In this document: positions 18,521 to 46,460 of the stretch, one piece after another
How positions within the stretch are numbered: position 1 is the stretch's first letter
How the letters are laid out: the number at the start of each line of letters is the position of its first letter
Made by a program: the position numbers and the translations under genes
Origin: Actinomycetes bacterium
GTDB taxonomy: Bacteria; Actinomycetota; JAICYB01
Length of the DNA: 64,000 bases
NCBI GenBank assembly: GCA_025934435.1
Contig: JAICYB010000003.1
Coordinates: forward strand, 1-64,000
Reading direction: 5' to 3'
The notes under the pieces: model-generated
Database searches by the model: none
Told to the model about the DNA's origin: nothing
Seen by the model: only the letters and a program-made list of their open reading frames with translations

Positions 18521-20506
18521 TCAGCCGATCCGGACCTGACGCGAGACCGACGGCACGTAGCGGGTGACGCCGCCGACGTTGACGGCCCGCTCGATGAAGA
18601 GCATGTACGGCCCGGGCGGCAGCACCGACGAGCCCGGGACGGCCGCCGTCAGCTCGCCGTCCTCGGTGTGGGTGATCTTCAGCTCGACGTTTCGCTGATC
18701 GGCGTCCGTCAGGTGCGTGATCGCCCCGTTCCGGACGAGGACGACCTTGCCGATGCTCGCGGCGTCCGGGGATTCGATGTGGAGCGATCCGTCCCACGCC
18801 GCCGTCGGAGGTGCGTCGCTGATCGTCGGCTGCGGGATCACGCCGCCCCCGGGAGCCGGGTAGCTCAGGTACGGCGGTGAGTAGATCTGGAAGGACGAGT
18901 CCGACTCCGGCTTCGAGAGCCCGAGGGCCGAGCCGAGATCGCTCTGGAACGCATATCCCGTGGCGATCGGCGCGTGGCCTCCGACCAGGACGCGGCCGTC
19001 GGGAAGCAGGATCGCGGTGTTGTGATAGGTCCGTCCGTGGCCCGATGCGAGCGTCGGGCCGGCGCTGTCCGTTCCGTGGGCCGGGTCGATCAGCTCCGTC
19101 TGCATGACCGGCATCGCGCTCCCCGGCAGATCCACTTCATCCGCGCTCGCGCCGCTCGTCACGAAGACCTCGCCGTCGGGAAGTACGACGGCACTCCCGT
19201 ACCACCGGCGCGCCTGGAGCTTCGGACCGGAGACGCTCGAGAGCGCGTCGCCGTGCGCGGTGTCGACGGTGTTGATCGTCGTGTCGTCCTCGCCGACGTA
19301 CGCGCCCGGCGTCGGGCCGATGACACCGCCGCCGTTGAGCACGCGCGCTTTCGTGTAGCCGTCCTGATACGTGAGCGGAAGCATCACGTCGAAGCCCGAG
19401 CCGCGGAAGCCGAGCGGGACGCCGCCGACCACCGGAAGTCCGGTCAGCGTGTTCGCCTTGACGTTGCTCCACGTCTGCGTCGACGGGTTGTAGACCTTCG
19501 CGAATGCCCATGTCGCTTCGTCGTAGCCCTCACCCGCGGGGTTGAAAGTCTGTCCGGCAGCGTCGTAGAAGATCTTGCCGTCGGGGAGAAGGTGCAGGCG
19601 CGCGAACAGCGGGAGCGACTGCTGCGATCCGTCCGCGAGCGTCGGATCCGTGCCCGCACTTGCACTGTGGTTGACCGTCCACTCGCTCGTCGACGGATCG
19701 AATGTTTCCGTCTGGACGACGTTCCGTCCGTTGTCGAGCATCGCGCGTCCGTCGTTGTAGAGCGGTTTCACCAGTTTCGTCACACCGCTCGCGACGAAGA
19801 TGTGTCCGTTCGGAAGCGTGACGAGCGTCGGGTACCAGCGACCGAAATGCATGTCGCTCGTACCCGGAGCGCTCGTCCACGTGCCGCCGCCCCCGTCGGG
19901 CGTGAAGATGCGAGTCGACTTCAATCCTTGGAGTTCGGAGACGCCGTAGCTCTTACCGGTCGTGGGATCGGTGACGCCTGGTTCGAGGTAGTACTTGGTG
20001 CCACCGGCGCTGAGGATCCGTCCGTCCGGGAGCTGCACGAGCGGCGCGCAGAACAGGTCGGCGTCGTTGCCGGGGCTGTCGACGATCAGCTGCGGCGGAA
20101 GGATCGCGTTGACGGGATCTGTCTCGTGTCCGTCCGTCGGCGCCGCCGTCTCGTTCGTCGGTGTCGTGAACGAACCGCTGTTGCCGTCGAAGGATGCGAC
20201 ACGACTCTGGTCGTCCTGCGCGACGTCACCGATCTCGGCGACGACGCTGAGATCGATGTTGTTCTGTCCTTCGAGTCCGTCCCAGAGCAGGACGTGGCCG
20301 TTGCTGAGGACGGCGACCGCCATCGCCGCCGGCGGGCAGCGGTAGCCGTCGGTCGGACGGTACTTCGCGGTCGAGCATCCCGGCCGCGTGTCCGGCTGGA
20401 CGATAAGGGGCGAGAGCCTTCCCGCACTTCCGGAGCCGGATGCGTCGGGGAGCCCGATGGCTGCGACGAGCACGATCGAGGCGATGACCATGAGGCCGCG
20501 GCGCAT
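18521..20506 (-). CDS. secreted copper-radical oxidase (galactose/glyoxal oxidase-like)
   Basis: A 661-residue exported protein with a signal peptide to about residue 24, a kelch-type seven-bladed propeller and a C-terminal Ig-like DUF1929 domain. The residues that build the copper-radical site of galactose oxidase can be placed: Cys153 and Tyr225 for the cross-linked cofactor, Tyr494-His495 ([14 protein letters not shown]) and His598 ([11 protein letters not shown]). All are present, so an active oxidase that turns an alcohol or aldehyde plus O2 into the oxidised product and H2O2 is likely. In streptomycetes a relative (GlxA) acts on cell-surface glucan at hyphal tips. ATG 20506 follows GAAGGAG. 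Confidence 0.88.
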
Positions 20507-20648
20507 GCAGCAGCTCCTTCAACCCATGACCACTACCCGGACCGCCCCCCTGGGCGGCCCAATCGTACGCCCGCTACGGAACCTGTCAATCGCTCGGGGG
20601 GCGGAGCGGGGACGCTACAGTGGCCGTCCGGGAGGGAGCAGGGAGGTT

Positions 20649-22328
20649 ATGGCCAGCACGACGCTCGTGCCGCTGATCGTCGTCGTCAGTTCGGACGCCG
20701 CGACCCGCACGCTCCTCACCGCCGAACTCGAGAAGCGCTACGCGCCCGACTATCTCGTCGTTTCCTACGACGGGCCGGACGATGCACTCGCGGAAGTGAG
20801 TTCGTTCGTCCGGGACGATCGCGACATCGCCCTCGTCCTCGCCGCGTTCTCGGCGCGCGACCGCGACGCGTTGACGTTCCTCGGACGGATCCGCGGCGCC
20901 GTGCCGACCGCGAAGCGCGCCGTTGCCGTCACGTGGGGCCAGTTCGATCTCGCGCGCGAGATGTTCGCCGCACTCGCTACGGGCGTGATCGAGAGCTTCG
21001 TGGTTCGTCCGGAGATGACGCGCGACGAAGAGTTCCATGTCGCGATCACGGAGATGCTGCGCGATGGGGGAGCCGACCGCGGTGAATTCGAACCCGTGCG
21101 CATCATCGACGAGCCGCGGTCGCAGCGAAGCACGGAGCTGCGAGACACGTTCCGTCGGAACAACATCCCCGTCGGTTTCTACGACGCAGCGTCGGACAGG
21201 GGGCGTCAGTTACTCGACGGCGTCGGACTCTCCGATCCGGCACTGCCCGTCGTGGTGCTCCGCTTCACTCCCGAGACGACCGTCCTCGAGGATCCGTCGC
21301 CCATCGAGCTGGCCGACGCCTTCGGATTGCTCGAGCCGATCGGTGCGGATGAGCATTTCGACGTCACGATCATCGGAGCGGGACCGGCCGGGCTCGCCGC
21401 CGCGGTGTACGCAGCGTCCGAAGGTCTGCACACCCTGGTCGTCGAGGTCGAAGCGGTCGGGGGCCAGGCGGGGACGAGCTCACTCATCCGGAACTTCCCG
21501 GGATTCCCGCGCGGCATCAGTGGCAACCGGCTCGCGTTCCATGCGTTCCAGCAAGCGTGGTCGTTCGGCGCGCGGTTCTCGTTCATGCGTGAGGCGAAGT
21601 CGCTCCGCACAGAGGGCGTCGATCGGATCGTCGAGCTCTCCGATGGCACGATCGCTCGGAGTCACGCGGTGATCATCGCGACGGGAGTCACGTATCGCAC
21701 GCTCGACGCACCTGCTTTGGAAAGGGTTCCCGGCGTCTTCTACGGCGCCGCCGTCTCCGAAGCCCCGAACATGAAAGGAAAACGCGCGTTCGTGGTCGGT
21801 GGCGGGAACAGCGCGGGCCAGGCCGCGATGCACCTATCGAAGTGGGCGAGTGAAGTGACGGTACTCGTTCGCGGCGAATCCCTCGCCGCGAGCATGTCCT
21901 CGTATCTCATCCGCGAGATCGACGCGACGCCCAACATGAGCGTCCGTCATTCCGTCGAGGTCGTCGACGGCGGGGCGGACATGGGAACGCTCGACCACAT
22001 CGTGCTGCGTGACCGCGTCTCCGGAACCACGGAGCGGGTCGACGCCGACGGACTGTTCGTGCTGATCGGATCCGCACCGCACACCGACTGGCTCGGCGAC
22101 GTCGTCGGTCGTGACGAGTGGGGGTTCGTCCTGACGGGTCCGGACGTCTCCGTCGATGTCACCGGACGATCGACCTTACCCCTCGAGACGACGCTCCCCG
22201 GGGTGTTCGCGGTCGGCGATGTGCGACGCGGTTCGGTGAAGCGTGTCGCGTCGGCCGTCGGGGACGGAGCCGTCGCCATCCAGTACGTGCACCAGCGACT
22301 GCGTGAGCTCGGACACGTCGACGCGTGA
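20649..22328 (+). CDS. thioredoxin reductase-like flavoprotein with pseudo-receiver and Trx-fold N-terminus
   Basis: A 559-residue three-part protein. Residues 1-135 resemble a response-regulator receiver, but the phospho-acceptor Asp is missing (the strand reads [11 protein letters not shown]). Residues 145-225 resemble a thioredoxin/glutaredoxin fold. From about 235 it is a thioredoxin-reductase-like FAD/NADPH unit: [13 protein letters not shown], then [10 protein letters not shown], then FAVGDVR near the end. The CxxC redox pair of true thioredoxin reductases is absent (the region reads [14 protein letters not shown]). Similar architectures occur in actinobacteria and cyanobacteria. Start ATG 20649 with GGGAGG upstream. 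Confidence 0.85.
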
Positions 22329-23333: not shown

Positions 23334-24986
23334 ATGCGCCCGAAGGTCGACCCCGCCGATTGGTTCGAACCCGTGGAGATCGAACGCGCGCGGATCCATT
23401 CGCGACGCGTGCAGCGTTACGCGTTGGGGTCGGAGGCGCTCGCCTTCGTGATCCTCCTCGCGTTCATCGTCTTGCGCATCCCCACCCATCTCATCGAGGC
23501 GCTCGGGATATCGAATTGGGCGCTCCAGGTGCTCGCTGTGTCTGCCGTGGTGTCCGTAACGCTGTGGCTTCTTCCGATGCCGCTCGATCTCAAGTTGCGG
23601 GCGCTCAGGGAGCGGGCCGGTCGGAATGCCCGAGCCTCGGGCGCGCGGTCGGCCCTCGAAGATCTGGCGTTCGCCGGCGTCGGGATCCCGATCGTGCTCT
23701 TGATCGTCTGGGCGATCGCACGCGCGACTGTGTACTGGTGGGCCGTCCTCTCGGTGCTGCCGGTGATCGCCTTCATCGTCGCGATGAACGGCGTACGCCA
23801 TCCGCGTCATGAGCCGTTGCCGGAAGAGGCGTTGCGACGGGTGCGACGTCTCATGCGGGAGGCGGGCGTCGCGGAGATCGAGGTGGTCGTCGGGCCGAAC
23901 AGGCTCGATCCCCGTCAGTCTGAGGTGACCGTGCACGGCCTCGGACGGCGCGGCCGGCTCGTCGTGGCGCGAAGCGCGCTCGAGCGTCCGCTCGACGAGT
24001 TCGAGGTACTGATGGCCGGTCCGATCGCATTAGGGAAGGTCCGGTTCCCGATCGTGCGCTCGATCCTCTCCGTCCTCTTCTGCGCGTTGCTGTTCCTTCC
24101 GTGCGCGCTCACGCTTCAGTCAGGACCGGTGCAACGGTGGGCCGGGATGTCCACGCGAACCGATCCTGCCGGGATCCCGGTCTTCATCCTGATCATCGTT
24201 CCGTCCTTCTTCCTGATCCTTCAGCTCATGCATGCTGAGACCCGGAGACGCCGGCGGAAGTCGGATCACGCGGCGCTGGAATTCACCCGCAACCCCGACG
24301 CATTCGAGCGGGTGCTCCGCTCCGACTACGAACGAACGCTCGACGCGCTCGCGCCTTCGCTGTACCAACGGCTCAATTCAGATCTTCCTCCGCCGGCGGA
24401 ACGTCTCGCGATGGCCGATTCTTGGCGGCGTGCGCAGCGCGTCGCGGTGCTCTTCACCGATCTCGAGCAATCGACGTCTCTTGTCGAGCGCCTCGGGGAC
24501 GAGCGCTGGTTCGAGCTGTTGCTCGACCACAACGAGATGATGCGTTCGAACTCCGAGCGCCACGGCGGACGCGAGCTAGCGTCGGCCGGCGATGGATTCA
24601 TGTTCGTGTTCGACGACGTGGGCGAGGCCTTGATCGCCGCCATCGAGATGCAGCGTGCGCTGGCGGCGTACAACACCGAGCACGACGTAACGCTTTCCGT
24701 CCGGATGGGTGTTCACACCGGCGAGGTGATCCGCAAGGAGGATCGCATCGTCGGCCGTGAGGTGCATGTCGCCGCGCGTATCTCGGCGATCGCGGGCGGG
24801 GGCCAGATCCTGGCATCGGGAAACGTCCGGGCTGCGCTCGAGGATTCCCCACGATTCCGGTTCGGGCCGACGCGCGAGGTCGAGCTCAAGGGCCTGACCG
24901 GAACGTTCGACGTGTGCGAAGTCGACTGGGCGGACGCGAGCCCGCGCGAACGCGAACGATCGGCTGCCGCGGCTCCGTCGAATTGA
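23334..24986 (+). CDS. class III adenylate/guanylate cyclase fused to a zinc-ligand-less Ste24 (M48)-like membrane domain
   Basis: A 550-residue protein. Residues 1-365 follow the order of Ste24/M48A proteases: membrane helices, PLPEEALRRVRRLMREAGVAE, HGLGRRGRLVVARSALE, DEFEVLMAGPIALGKV, two helices, then SDHAALEFTRNPDAFERVL and PPPAERLAMADSW. The HExxH position reads GPIALG, and the Glu of the usual E-x-x-x-D motif is replaced, so no zinc site remains. Residues 367-530 are a class III cyclase with metal aspartates Asp376 and Asp420 and the transition-state Arg482. The usual Lys before GDG is Ala and the usual Asn is His478, so catalysis may be altered. The ATG lies two bases after the small gene. 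Confidence 0.87.
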   Translation: MRPKVDPADWFEPVEIERARIHSRRVQRYALGSEALAFVILLAFIVLRIPTHLIEALGISNWALQVLAVSAVVSVTLWLLPMPLDLKLRALRERAGRNARASGARSALEDLAFAGVGIPIVLLIVWAIARATVYWWAVLSVLPVIAFIVAMNGVRHPRHEPLPEEALRRVRRLMREAGVAEIEVVVGPNRLDPRQSEVTVHGLGRRGRLVVARSALERPLDEFEVLMAGPIALGKVRFPIVRSILSVLFCALLFLPCALTLQSGPVQRWAGMSTRTDPAGIPVFILIIVPSFFLILQLMHAETRRRRRKSDHAALEFTRNPDAFERVLRSDYERTLDALAPSLYQRLNSDLPPPAERLAMADSWRRAQRVAVLFTDLEQSTSLVERLGDERWFELLLDHNEMMRSNSERHGGRELASAGDGFMFVFDDVGEALIAAIEMQRALAAYNTEHDVTLSVRMGVHTGEVIRKEDRIVGREVHVAARISAIAGGGQILASGNVRAALEDSPRFRFGPTREVELKGLTGTFDVCEVDWADASPRERERSAAAAPSN

Positions 24987-25683: not shown

Positions 25684-27012
25684 GTGGACATGCCGGAGAC
25701 GCGCTACGCGAAGACGCCGGACGGTCTGTCGATCGCGTACCAGGTCGTCGGCAGCGGTCCGGTGGATATCGCCTTCTTGCCGTTCTTCGGCGCTGTGGAC
25801 GTGATGTGGGACGACCCGCTCTACGCCCAGGCTCTCGAGCGAATGTCGAAGATCGGCCGCTTGATCTGCTGCGAACGGCGAGGGCTCGGCGTGTCCGACG
25901 CGATCCCGCTCGCCGCACTCCCGACGCCCGAAGCATGGAGCGAAGACATCCGGACGATCCTCGACAACGTCGGATCCGAGTCCGCGGTCGTCGTGTGCAA
26001 CGGTTCGGCGAGTTACATGGGCTTGTTCTTCGCGGCCACACATCCCGAGCGCACGCGCGCCCTCGTCCTCATCGACGCCGCGGCTCACACGTTGCGATCC
26101 GACGACTACCCGATCGGCCTGGAAGAGGTCGAATCGTGGATGGCGATCGCCGAACGCGTCTGGGGGACGGCGGCGACGGCTTACGCTCTCGCACCGAGCC
26201 GTGCGGCAGATCCCGTGTTCGGTGCATGGGCAGCTCGATGGCAGCGCGCGGTGTCCGGTCCCGCGATGGGCATGGCCTTCATGCGGTGGATCTACTCGCT
26301 CGACATGCGGAGCGCGCTGCCGGCGATCCGGATACCGACGCTGGTGTTGCAGCGTGAGGAGGGCATGGCCACGCTGCCTGCAGGATCGGGACGGTTCATC
26401 GCCGAGCACATCGAGGGCGCTCGCTACGTCGAACTTCCGGGATCGGACGTCTCGTTCTTCACCGATCGTTCGGACGGATTGATCGATCACATCGAGGAAT
26501 TCATCACGGGGGTTCGTCCTCGACCGACCGTCGATCGCGCGCTCTCAACGGTGCTCTTCACGGATGTCGTCGGATCGACGGCCAAGGTGACGGAGATCGG
26601 CGATGAACGCTGGCAGCGGTTGCTCGAACAGCACGACATCCTGATCGAGCACCACCTCGACCGCTACCGTGGGCGGAAGGTCGCGCATACCGGCGACGGG
26701 ATCCTCGCCACGTTCGACGGACCCGCGCGCGCCGTGCATTGCGCCCGCGACATCTGCGACGCGGTTCGTGCGCTCGGGATCGAGGTACGCGCCGGATTGC
26801 ATACGGGCGAGGTGGAGCTGCGCGGCGACGCGATAGGAGGGATCGCGGTTCACATCGGCCGGCGCGTGTGCGCGCTTGCCGGGCCCGGCGAAGTGCTCGT
26901 GAGCCGGACGGTCACCGATCTTGTCGCAGGAAGTGATCTGCGATTCACCGACCGTGGGGAACACACGCTGAAAGGTGTCCCGGGGAACTGGAACATCTAC
27001 AGCGTGGCTTGA
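25684..27012 (+). CDS. alpha/beta-hydrolase-like domain fused to a class III cyclase
   Basis: A 442-residue protein of a fusion type known from mycobacteria and other actinobacteria. Residues 1-270 are an alpha/beta-hydrolase fold. The nucleophile elbow, normally G-x-S-x-G before FAATHPERT, reads CNGSASYMG, so the catalytic Ser appears shifted or lost and this half may only bind a ligand. Residues 285-440 are the cyclase: FTDVVGST and HTGDGILATF give the two metal aspartates, and GIAVHIGRRV the later motif. The Lys expected before the second Asp is replaced by Ala. GTG 25684 or ATG 25690 is the start. Confidence 0.87.
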   Translation: MDMPETRYAKTPDGLSIAYQVVGSGPVDIAFLPFFGAVDVMWDDPLYAQALERMSKIGRLICCERRGLGVSDAIPLAALPTPEAWSEDIRTILDNVGSESAVVVCNGSASYMGLFFAATHPERTRALVLIDAAAHTLRSDDYPIGLEEVESWMAIAERVWGTAATAYALAPSRAADPVFGAWAARWQRAVSGPAMGMAFMRWIYSLDMRSALPAIRIPTLVLQREEGMATLPAGSGRFIAEHIEGARYVELPGSDVSFFTDRSDGLIDHIEEFITGVRPRPTVDRALSTVLFTDVVGSTAKVTEIGDERWQRLLEQHDILIEHHLDRYRGRKVAHTGDGILATFDGPARAVHCARDICDAVRALGIEVRAGLHTGEVELRGDAIGGIAVHIGRRVCALAGPGEVLVSRTVTDLVAGSDLRFTDRGEHTLKGVPGNWNIYSVA

Positions 27013-45345: not shown

Positions 45346-45783
45346 ATGCCCTTGAAGCGGAAGAGCGGGAACGACCGAAAGGTGCAACTGCTGTCCAAGG
45401 TGTCCCTGTTTCAGGAGTGCAACGCGAAGGAGCTCGCGAAGATCGCGGCCCTTGCGGACGAGATCGAGGTCGACAAGGGAGCCGTCCTGACGAAGGAAGG
45501 CTCACCCGGTCGGGAATGCTTCGTCGTGTCTGAAGGAAAGGCGACGGCGAAGCTCCGCGGGAAGAAGCTCGCGACCTACAAGCCGGGCGACGTGTTCGGC
45601 GAGATGTCGCTGCTCGACAACGAACCTCGTTCGGCAACGATCACCGCCGACACCGACATGGTGCTCTTCGTCGTCGACTCCCGGAGCTTCTGGGGGCTTT
45701 GTGAGGAGGCGCCACCGGTCGCGCGCAAGATCATGAAGTCGATCTCGCAGCGACTCCGTCGGGTCGAGAAGGCGCTGACCTAG
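45346..45783 (+). CDS. stand-alone cyclic nucleotide-binding domain protein
   Basis: A 145-residue protein consisting of one cNMP-binding domain: the strand GAVLTKEGSPGRECFVVSEGKA and the phosphate-binding cassette GDVFGEMSLLDNEPRSATITA with the Glu and Arg that hold the cyclic nucleotide ribose and phosphate. No DNA-binding or kinase part is attached. Binding of cAMP is plausible because two class III cyclases are encoded upstream. ATG 45346 has GGGAGGTG upstream. It is convergent with the Crp-like gene (4-base overlap). Confidence 0.88.
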   Translation: MPLKRKSGNDRKVQLLSKVSLFQECNAKELAKIAALADEIEVDKGAVLTKEGSPGRECFVVSEGKATAKLRGKKLATYKPGDVFGEMSLLDNEPRSATITADTDMVLFVVDSRSFWGLCEEAPPVARKIMKSISQRLRRVEKALT

Positions 45784-46460
45784 AGCGAGCGAGCGCGGAG
45801 GGCGTCCACGTCGAGGACGATGATCGAACGTCGTCCGGTCGTGACCCAGCCTCTGTCGCGGAATTCGCGGAGCGCTTTCGAAACGGCCTCGCGGGACGAA
45901 CCGGTCCAGCCGGCGAGTTCGTCCTGCGTGAGCGACAGCGTGATGCGCACGTTGTCGCCCTCGCTTTCGCCGTAACGGTCCACGAGCTCGAGCAGACGAC
46001 GCGCGACTCGTCCCGGCGTGTCATACGCGCCGAACTCGACGCGTTTGCGATCAGCGTCCCGGAGCTTCCTCGTCATCGTTTGGAGGAGCAGGATCGCGAG
46101 ACGTCCGTGTTCGGCGAGGAAGGCGATGAAGCGTTCGGACGGAACGATCAGCGCTTCGATCGGCTCGAGGGCCGAGACGGTCGCCGACCTCGACTGGCCG
46201 TCGATCGCCGAGAACTCGCCGAGGAGATCACCCGGCCCCCGGACGGCGAGGACGACCTCCTTGCCGTCCGCCGTGTAGCTCGAGATCTTCGCGCGGCCGG
46301 ACAGCAGCAGGATCACGTGATCGGACGCCTCACCCTCGGTCATGAGGAATGCGCCACGGCGGAAGTTGCGTTTCACGCCACGGGAGATGAGGTCGTCCAT
46401 CTCCTTCGGTGCGACGGCCGAGCCGAAGTTGTCCATAAGTAGTTGCCCGACAGAAGTCAC
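45780..46460 (-). CDS. Crp/Fnr family transcription regulator
   Basis: A 226-residue regulator. The cNMP-binding domain has [21 protein letters not shown], with Glu, Arg and Ser where cAMP is held in CRP. A dimerisation helix comes next, then a C-terminal winged helix with the recognition stretch [29 protein letters not shown]. It is most like the actinobacterial Crp/GlxR group, so it probably binds DNA with cAMP. Start GTG 46460 with GGAGGG upstream on the minus strand. Confidence 0.9.

Follow-up and report, generated by a model that had tools for sequence, protein, structure and literature searches.

A class III nucleotidyl cyclase fused to a Ste24-like membrane domain that has lost its zinc site

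In the 64,000-nt stretch of actinomycete DNA analysed here (the window), we found a gene in which a membrane domain of the M48A/Ste24 protease family, lacking its zinc site, is joined to a class III nucleotidyl cyclase. The gene is a single intact open reading frame without frameshift (positions 23334-24986, + strand, as are all features of this gene given below; ATG start, 550 amino acids), and lies on a contig of 96 kb; the genome amounts to 3.33 Mb in 133 contigs. We read its product as a membrane-bound class III cyclase in which the dead Ste24 fold is the sensory or membrane module that sets cyclase output, a reading to which we assign a probability of about 0.5; the dead half probably governs a second-messenger signal, as a sensor or a scaffold in the membrane. 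Both protein families are known, and what is new here is the kind of N-terminal module attached to the cyclase. No report of a fusion between a Ste24-type pseudoprotease and a cyclase was found in the open-access literature.

The homology of residues 1-366 to M48A/Ste24 is genuine. A profile built from 17 intact homologues, with the query left out, matched the N-terminal half (residues 1-365, positions 23334-24428) along its whole length at 138 bits, as compared with at most 10.2 bits for 200 locally shuffled sequences and -9.9 for the reversed sequence. The underlying alignment combined residues 1-366 with 17 intact homologues of the same phylum, two of these rows being halves of a single gene that a contig break divides in a sister genome. 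An intact Ste24 paralogue of 386 amino acids, with VGHEIGHW and HERQAD preserved, is encoded on another contig of the same genome (G000:C41), and BLASTP aligned it with residues 6-365 (E = 4e-29, 26% identity). The AlphaFold2 model of residues 1-366 was confident (mean pLDDT 88.9, pTM 0.85), and each of its top 12 matches in the PDB was to ZMPSTE24 or Ste24p (lowest E 1.5e-7, TM scores mostly 0.72-0.76). The fold result and the sequence homology are not separate lines of evidence, as the input alignment included intact relatives. The structural comparison proposed in an earlier note on this DNA thus bore out its assignment, and the motifs quoted there, GLGRRGRLVVARSALE (residues 202-217), SDHAALEFTRNPDAFERVL and PPPAERLAMADSW, are all present. 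In the M48 profile search that it also proposed, Pfam Peptidase_M48_N stayed below the cut-off in a single-sequence scan (E = 0.53), yet the 17-homologue profile scored clearly and the match to M48 is certain. Pfam alone, or a single scan of residues 1-366, in which the best match was a weak one to Phage_holin (E = 0.0013, likewise below the cut-off), would miss M48, and the profile test was therefore used instead.

Aligning this half with its intact homologues revealed that the protease site has been lost throughout. The histidine, glutamate and histidine of HExxH, a motif found in all 16 of the intact homologues that cover these columns and missing from the fusion protein, are replaced by G229, P230 and L233 (GPIAL, residues 229-233, positions 24018-24032), and the glutamate that provides the third zinc ligand in ExxAD is replaced by Arg307 (TRRRRRKSD in place of SRxxExxAD, residues 303-311, positions 24240-24266), both as previously noted. 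On the substrate-side strand, EVTVHG stands in place of NAYxxG (residues 197-202, positions 23922-23939), the asparagine having become E197, and the histidine of HPP has become L351 (LPP, residues 351-353, positions 24384-24392). No recognisable WGxSTQ segment remains, and a deletion has removed eight residues around PLFN. Overall, the protein retains 31 of the 72 columns that are conserved in at least 80% of intact homologues. Residues 1-366 contain no second HExxH; seven histidines remain (22, 52, 156, 159, 201, 300 and 312), from which His201, His300 and His312 may conceivably rebuild a metal site, though nothing hints at one. With the zinc ligands, the catalytic glutamate and the conserved asparagine and histidine all gone, the Ste24 half is, as judged from its sequence, a pseudoprotease, a non-peptidase homologue of M48A in which proteolysis is predicted to be absent. 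In ZMPSTE24, whose intramembrane chamber has been described, the HExxH histidines are essential and mutation of Asn265, which we read as the asparagine of NAY, causes disease (PMC6078402).

The earlier note had named two outcomes that would speak against a dead Ste24 domain, a mismatch with M48 and an intact zinc triad elsewhere in this half; both were sought and neither was found, profile and fold matching the family and no triad being recognisable. As compared with Ste24 and ZMPSTE24, the CAAX prenyl proteases of family M48A (PDB 4aw6, 2ypt, 4il3), the fusion protein thus has the same fold and the same order of motifs, with whole-length homology to bacterial members, but lacks the zinc ligands, the catalytic glutamate, a recognisable WGxSTQ and the PLFN stretch, and carries a C-terminal cyclase in addition.

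Six hydrophobic helices lie ahead of or beside the former protease domain and are predicted to span the membrane (residues about 30-48, 62-80, 110-131, 136-154, 238-262 and 280-300; positions 23421-24233). Lysines and arginines number 7, 7, 16 and 14 in the putative inner loops and 0, 0 and 2 in the outer ones, a distribution that places the N-terminus, the soluble part of the Ste24 fold and the cyclase on the predicted cytoplasmic side. A two-residue junction separates the last Ste24 helix (residues 354-365) of the full-length model from the first strand of the cyclase, which begins at residue 368 (helix and junction, positions 24393-24434), in agreement with the earlier statement that the cyclase follows directly.

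The C-terminal half contains the catalytic domain of a class III cyclase, of the Ma1120/Rv1900c type (residues 366-535, positions 24429-24938), as recognised by Pfam (Guanylate_cyc, 8.4e-16), by sequence matches in the PDB (Ma1120, 2.5e-36; Rv1900c, 5.7e-25) and by superposition of the full-length model on Ma1120 (TM 0.93). The earlier description of this gene, a class III cyclase fused to a Ste24-like domain without a zinc site, is thus correct. Comparison with other cyclases showed that both metal-binding aspartates (Asp376, positions 24459-24461; Asp420, positions 24591-24593) and the catalytic arginine of the transition-state pair are kept (R482, paired with His478 at the asparagine position; positions 24765-24779), a histidine being found there in many cyclases of this genome and in Rv1900c (PMC4886424). 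The canonical ATP-selecting Lys/Asp pair is absent. Ala416 occupies the lysine position (positions 24579-24581; K101 in the numbering of PMC4215837) and Arg471 the aspartate position (positions 24744-24746; D157 in that numbering), the latter being unique among 41 cyclases compared, although Asp470 adjoins it and an alignment offset of one residue is possible, such that loss of the aspartate is not certain. The protein therefore shares its cyclase domain, metal aspartates and catalytic arginine with the adenylyl cyclases Ma1120 and Rv1900c (PDB 4wp9, 1ybt), and differs from them in the alanine and arginine at the two substrate-selecting positions. The N-terminal domains differ as well, that of Rv1900c being a soluble alpha/beta-hydrolase rather than a Ste24 fold.

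Such dead enzymes ahead of cyclases recur in this genome. It has approximately 25 class III cyclase matches and nine Rv1900c-like fusions of an alpha/beta-hydrolase to a cyclase (L007, L008, L052, L053, L054, L056, L058, L060 and L061), and alignment showed that seven of the nine have lost the serine and histidine of the Ser-Asp-His triad, including the neighbour of the gene described here (L008, positions 25684-27012, + strand), a parallel case rather than an established partner; only L007 and L056 keep the triad, as does one of five such fusions in sister genera. Like the fusion protein, these proteins place a former enzyme domain before a class III cyclase, but theirs is a soluble serine-hydrolase fold whereas that of the fusion is a membrane metalloprotease fold, so by analogy the dead Ste24 would add a second enzyme fold, unrelated to the first, that serves the same purpose. 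Nothing else supports a receptor-like role of the Ste24 half as strongly as this parallel, yet it remains an analogy. The parallel loss of the triad in seven hydrolase-cyclases also suggests that dead enzymes serving as cyclase receptors may be commoner than thought.

How the Ste24 half could set cyclase output can be sketched from the behaviour of related enzymes. Bacterial class III cyclases work as dimers (PMC4821796), and the fusion protein would likewise dimerise through its cyclase domains, an arrangement that would set two Ste24 folds side by side. The former proteolytic chamber would then bind, but not cleave, either a partner protein or a ligand from the membrane, such as a lipid or hydrophobic peptide, and movement of the last Ste24 helix would shift the packing of the two cyclase domains and hence the output of cyclic nucleotide, a signal that the 12 cNMP-binding domains matched in the genome could read. 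Rv1625c/Cya and other six-helix membrane adenylyl cyclases likewise join a multi-helix membrane domain directly to a class III cyclase whose function requires dimerisation, but the membrane domains are not homologous, that of the fusion being a Ste24-derived former protease with a cytoplasmic domain of its own. Two precedents come from Rv1625c: C18 mono-unsaturated fatty acids inhibit the enzyme by way of its membrane domain (PMC12505454), and a spliced-on six-helix quorum receptor brings it under regulation (PMC4821796).

We infer a sensor role for the Ste24 half from the predicted cytoplasmic C-terminus, the two-residue junction, a frame that stayed open while diverging and the seven dead hydrolase-cyclases; our analysis found no ligand, partner or operon context pointing to a signal. 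Nothing specific supported the earlier proposal that the domain may sense prenylated ligands, and the NAY and WGxSTQ segments that intact relatives conserve have also been lost. We hold more tentatively, and with the odds somewhat against it, the wider view that this is a new type of sensor, in which a dead Ste24 chamber would capture a membrane lipid or peptide uncut and use the last helix to gate the cyclase, the protein being one example of a habit of this lineage to turn enzymes (Ste24, alpha/beta-hydrolases) into dead receptor domains of cyclases. If the chamber does sense, the protein would be a naturally occurring and testable example of a protease turned receptor and would give a direct handle on the control of class III cyclases by their membrane domains.

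The fusion is known from one genome. We detected no orthologue of it in two sister genomes (order and class being represented by three genomes), in 397 genomes of the phylum searched with both the N-terminal domain and the full protein, in 296 genomes of another class (a search without positive control), or in 84,980 species genomes scanned twice, with the single protein and with a two-sequence alignment, by short patterns that reach close relatives only. Orthologues with the same fusion and the same lost ligands, which the earlier note had hoped for, were thus not found. As a control, a profile of the alignment of residues 1-366 with the 17 homologues listed about 100 substantially complete M48A homologues in the 397 genomes; those inspected, namely the best matches and those whose frame could accommodate a fusion, all keep HExxH and have no cyclase domain, leaving the window gene as the only fusion and the only dead member among them. 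Synteny with one sister genome (G002) is confined to a thioredoxin-reductase-like gene and one distant hydrolase-cyclase.

Occurrence in a single genome, along with a fast-evolving N-terminal half, would be expected of a pseudogene, or of a fusion that arose by assembly error or recent accident and has no function. In a tree of M48A proteins the pseudo-Ste24 grouped with its paralogue, the paralogue's relative from a sister genus and one other sequence (support 96/99), on a branch of 2.55 changes per site as compared with a median of 0.46 for end branches, a length at which placement is unsure. The frame has nevertheless stayed open over this divergence, and the GC content at the three codon positions is nearly the same in the Ste24 half (0.70/0.47/0.81) as in the cyclase half (0.71/0.46/0.83) and similar in the neighbouring genes, which argues for retention and against a decaying gene and indicates that the pseudo-Ste24 is retained as a protein under relaxed or altered constraint. 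We therefore rejected both pseudogene and assembly artefact; together with the conserved columns that persist, the length of the contig and the confident fold, these observations make them highly improbable. In the main rival to a sensory module, the dead Ste24 would do no more than anchor the protein in the membrane and scaffold its dimerisation, the cyclase being otherwise regulated or constitutive. Many class III cyclases have membrane domains without a known ligand, the putative substrate-contact residues of Ste24 (NAYxxG, WGxSTQ) have been lost as well, and very fast evolution is what would be expected if the membrane fold alone were needed. However, a large and complete Ste24 fold has been kept, including a cytoplasmic domain (residues 155-235) that goes beyond the needs of an anchor, and regulation by the membrane domain has been described for related cyclases (PMC12505454, PMC4821796), so that we regard a pure anchor as rather unlikely.

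The intact paralogue of the same clade raises a different option, in which the dead Ste24 would pair or compete with it for substrates and the cyclase would report the substrate load. Other families, for example the iRhoms, provide pseudoproteases that bind the substrates of their active counterparts; but the paralogue is encoded on a different contig and is distant in sequence, and the substrate-binding strand of the fusion protein is changed, which together make this proposal improbable. A further alternative concerns the cyclase half and is compatible with any reading of the Ste24 half: with lysine replaced by alanine and aspartate by arginine, the domain may be impaired, and either be active only as a heterodimer with another class III cyclase or signal as a pseudo-cyclase. 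Both substrate-selecting positions are indeed non-canonical, the second uniquely so, and the retained metal aspartates and arginine could supply half of an active site, for which about 24 other cyclases of the genome could serve as partners. Yet Ma1120 stays active with changes at these positions (K101E, D157G/T/C/H), which shift its preference (PMC4215837); Rv1900c itself has asparagine at the lysine position, as seen in the PDB match alignment, and histidine at the asparagine position (PMC4886424); and the possible offset to Asp470 leaves the aspartate change in doubt. The canonical pair is thus not required in every active class III cyclase (PMC4215837, PMC4886424). Impairment is accordingly the less likely case, and enzyme activity of the fusion is plausible from the Ma1120 precedent, with activity and product left uncertain by the change of both selecting residues.

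Several nearby and distant genes deserve mention in their own right. The neighbouring hydrolase-cyclase (positions 25684-27012) has alanine at both substrate-selecting positions of its cyclase, so that two cyclases without canonical selecting residues lie 0.7 kb apart. Positions 20388-22328 encode a thioredoxin-reductase-like flavoprotein whose long N-terminal extension matches nothing in Pfam, and a sister genus has a homologue with 48% identity. Two cNMP-binding-domain genes, possible readers of cyclic nucleotides, occur in opposite orientation at positions 45466-46370, their domains about 0.4 kb apart. Elsewhere in the genome (G000:C116:9800-35000), several class III cyclases are clustered with three cNMP-binding matches, two of which fall within one 704-residue open frame.
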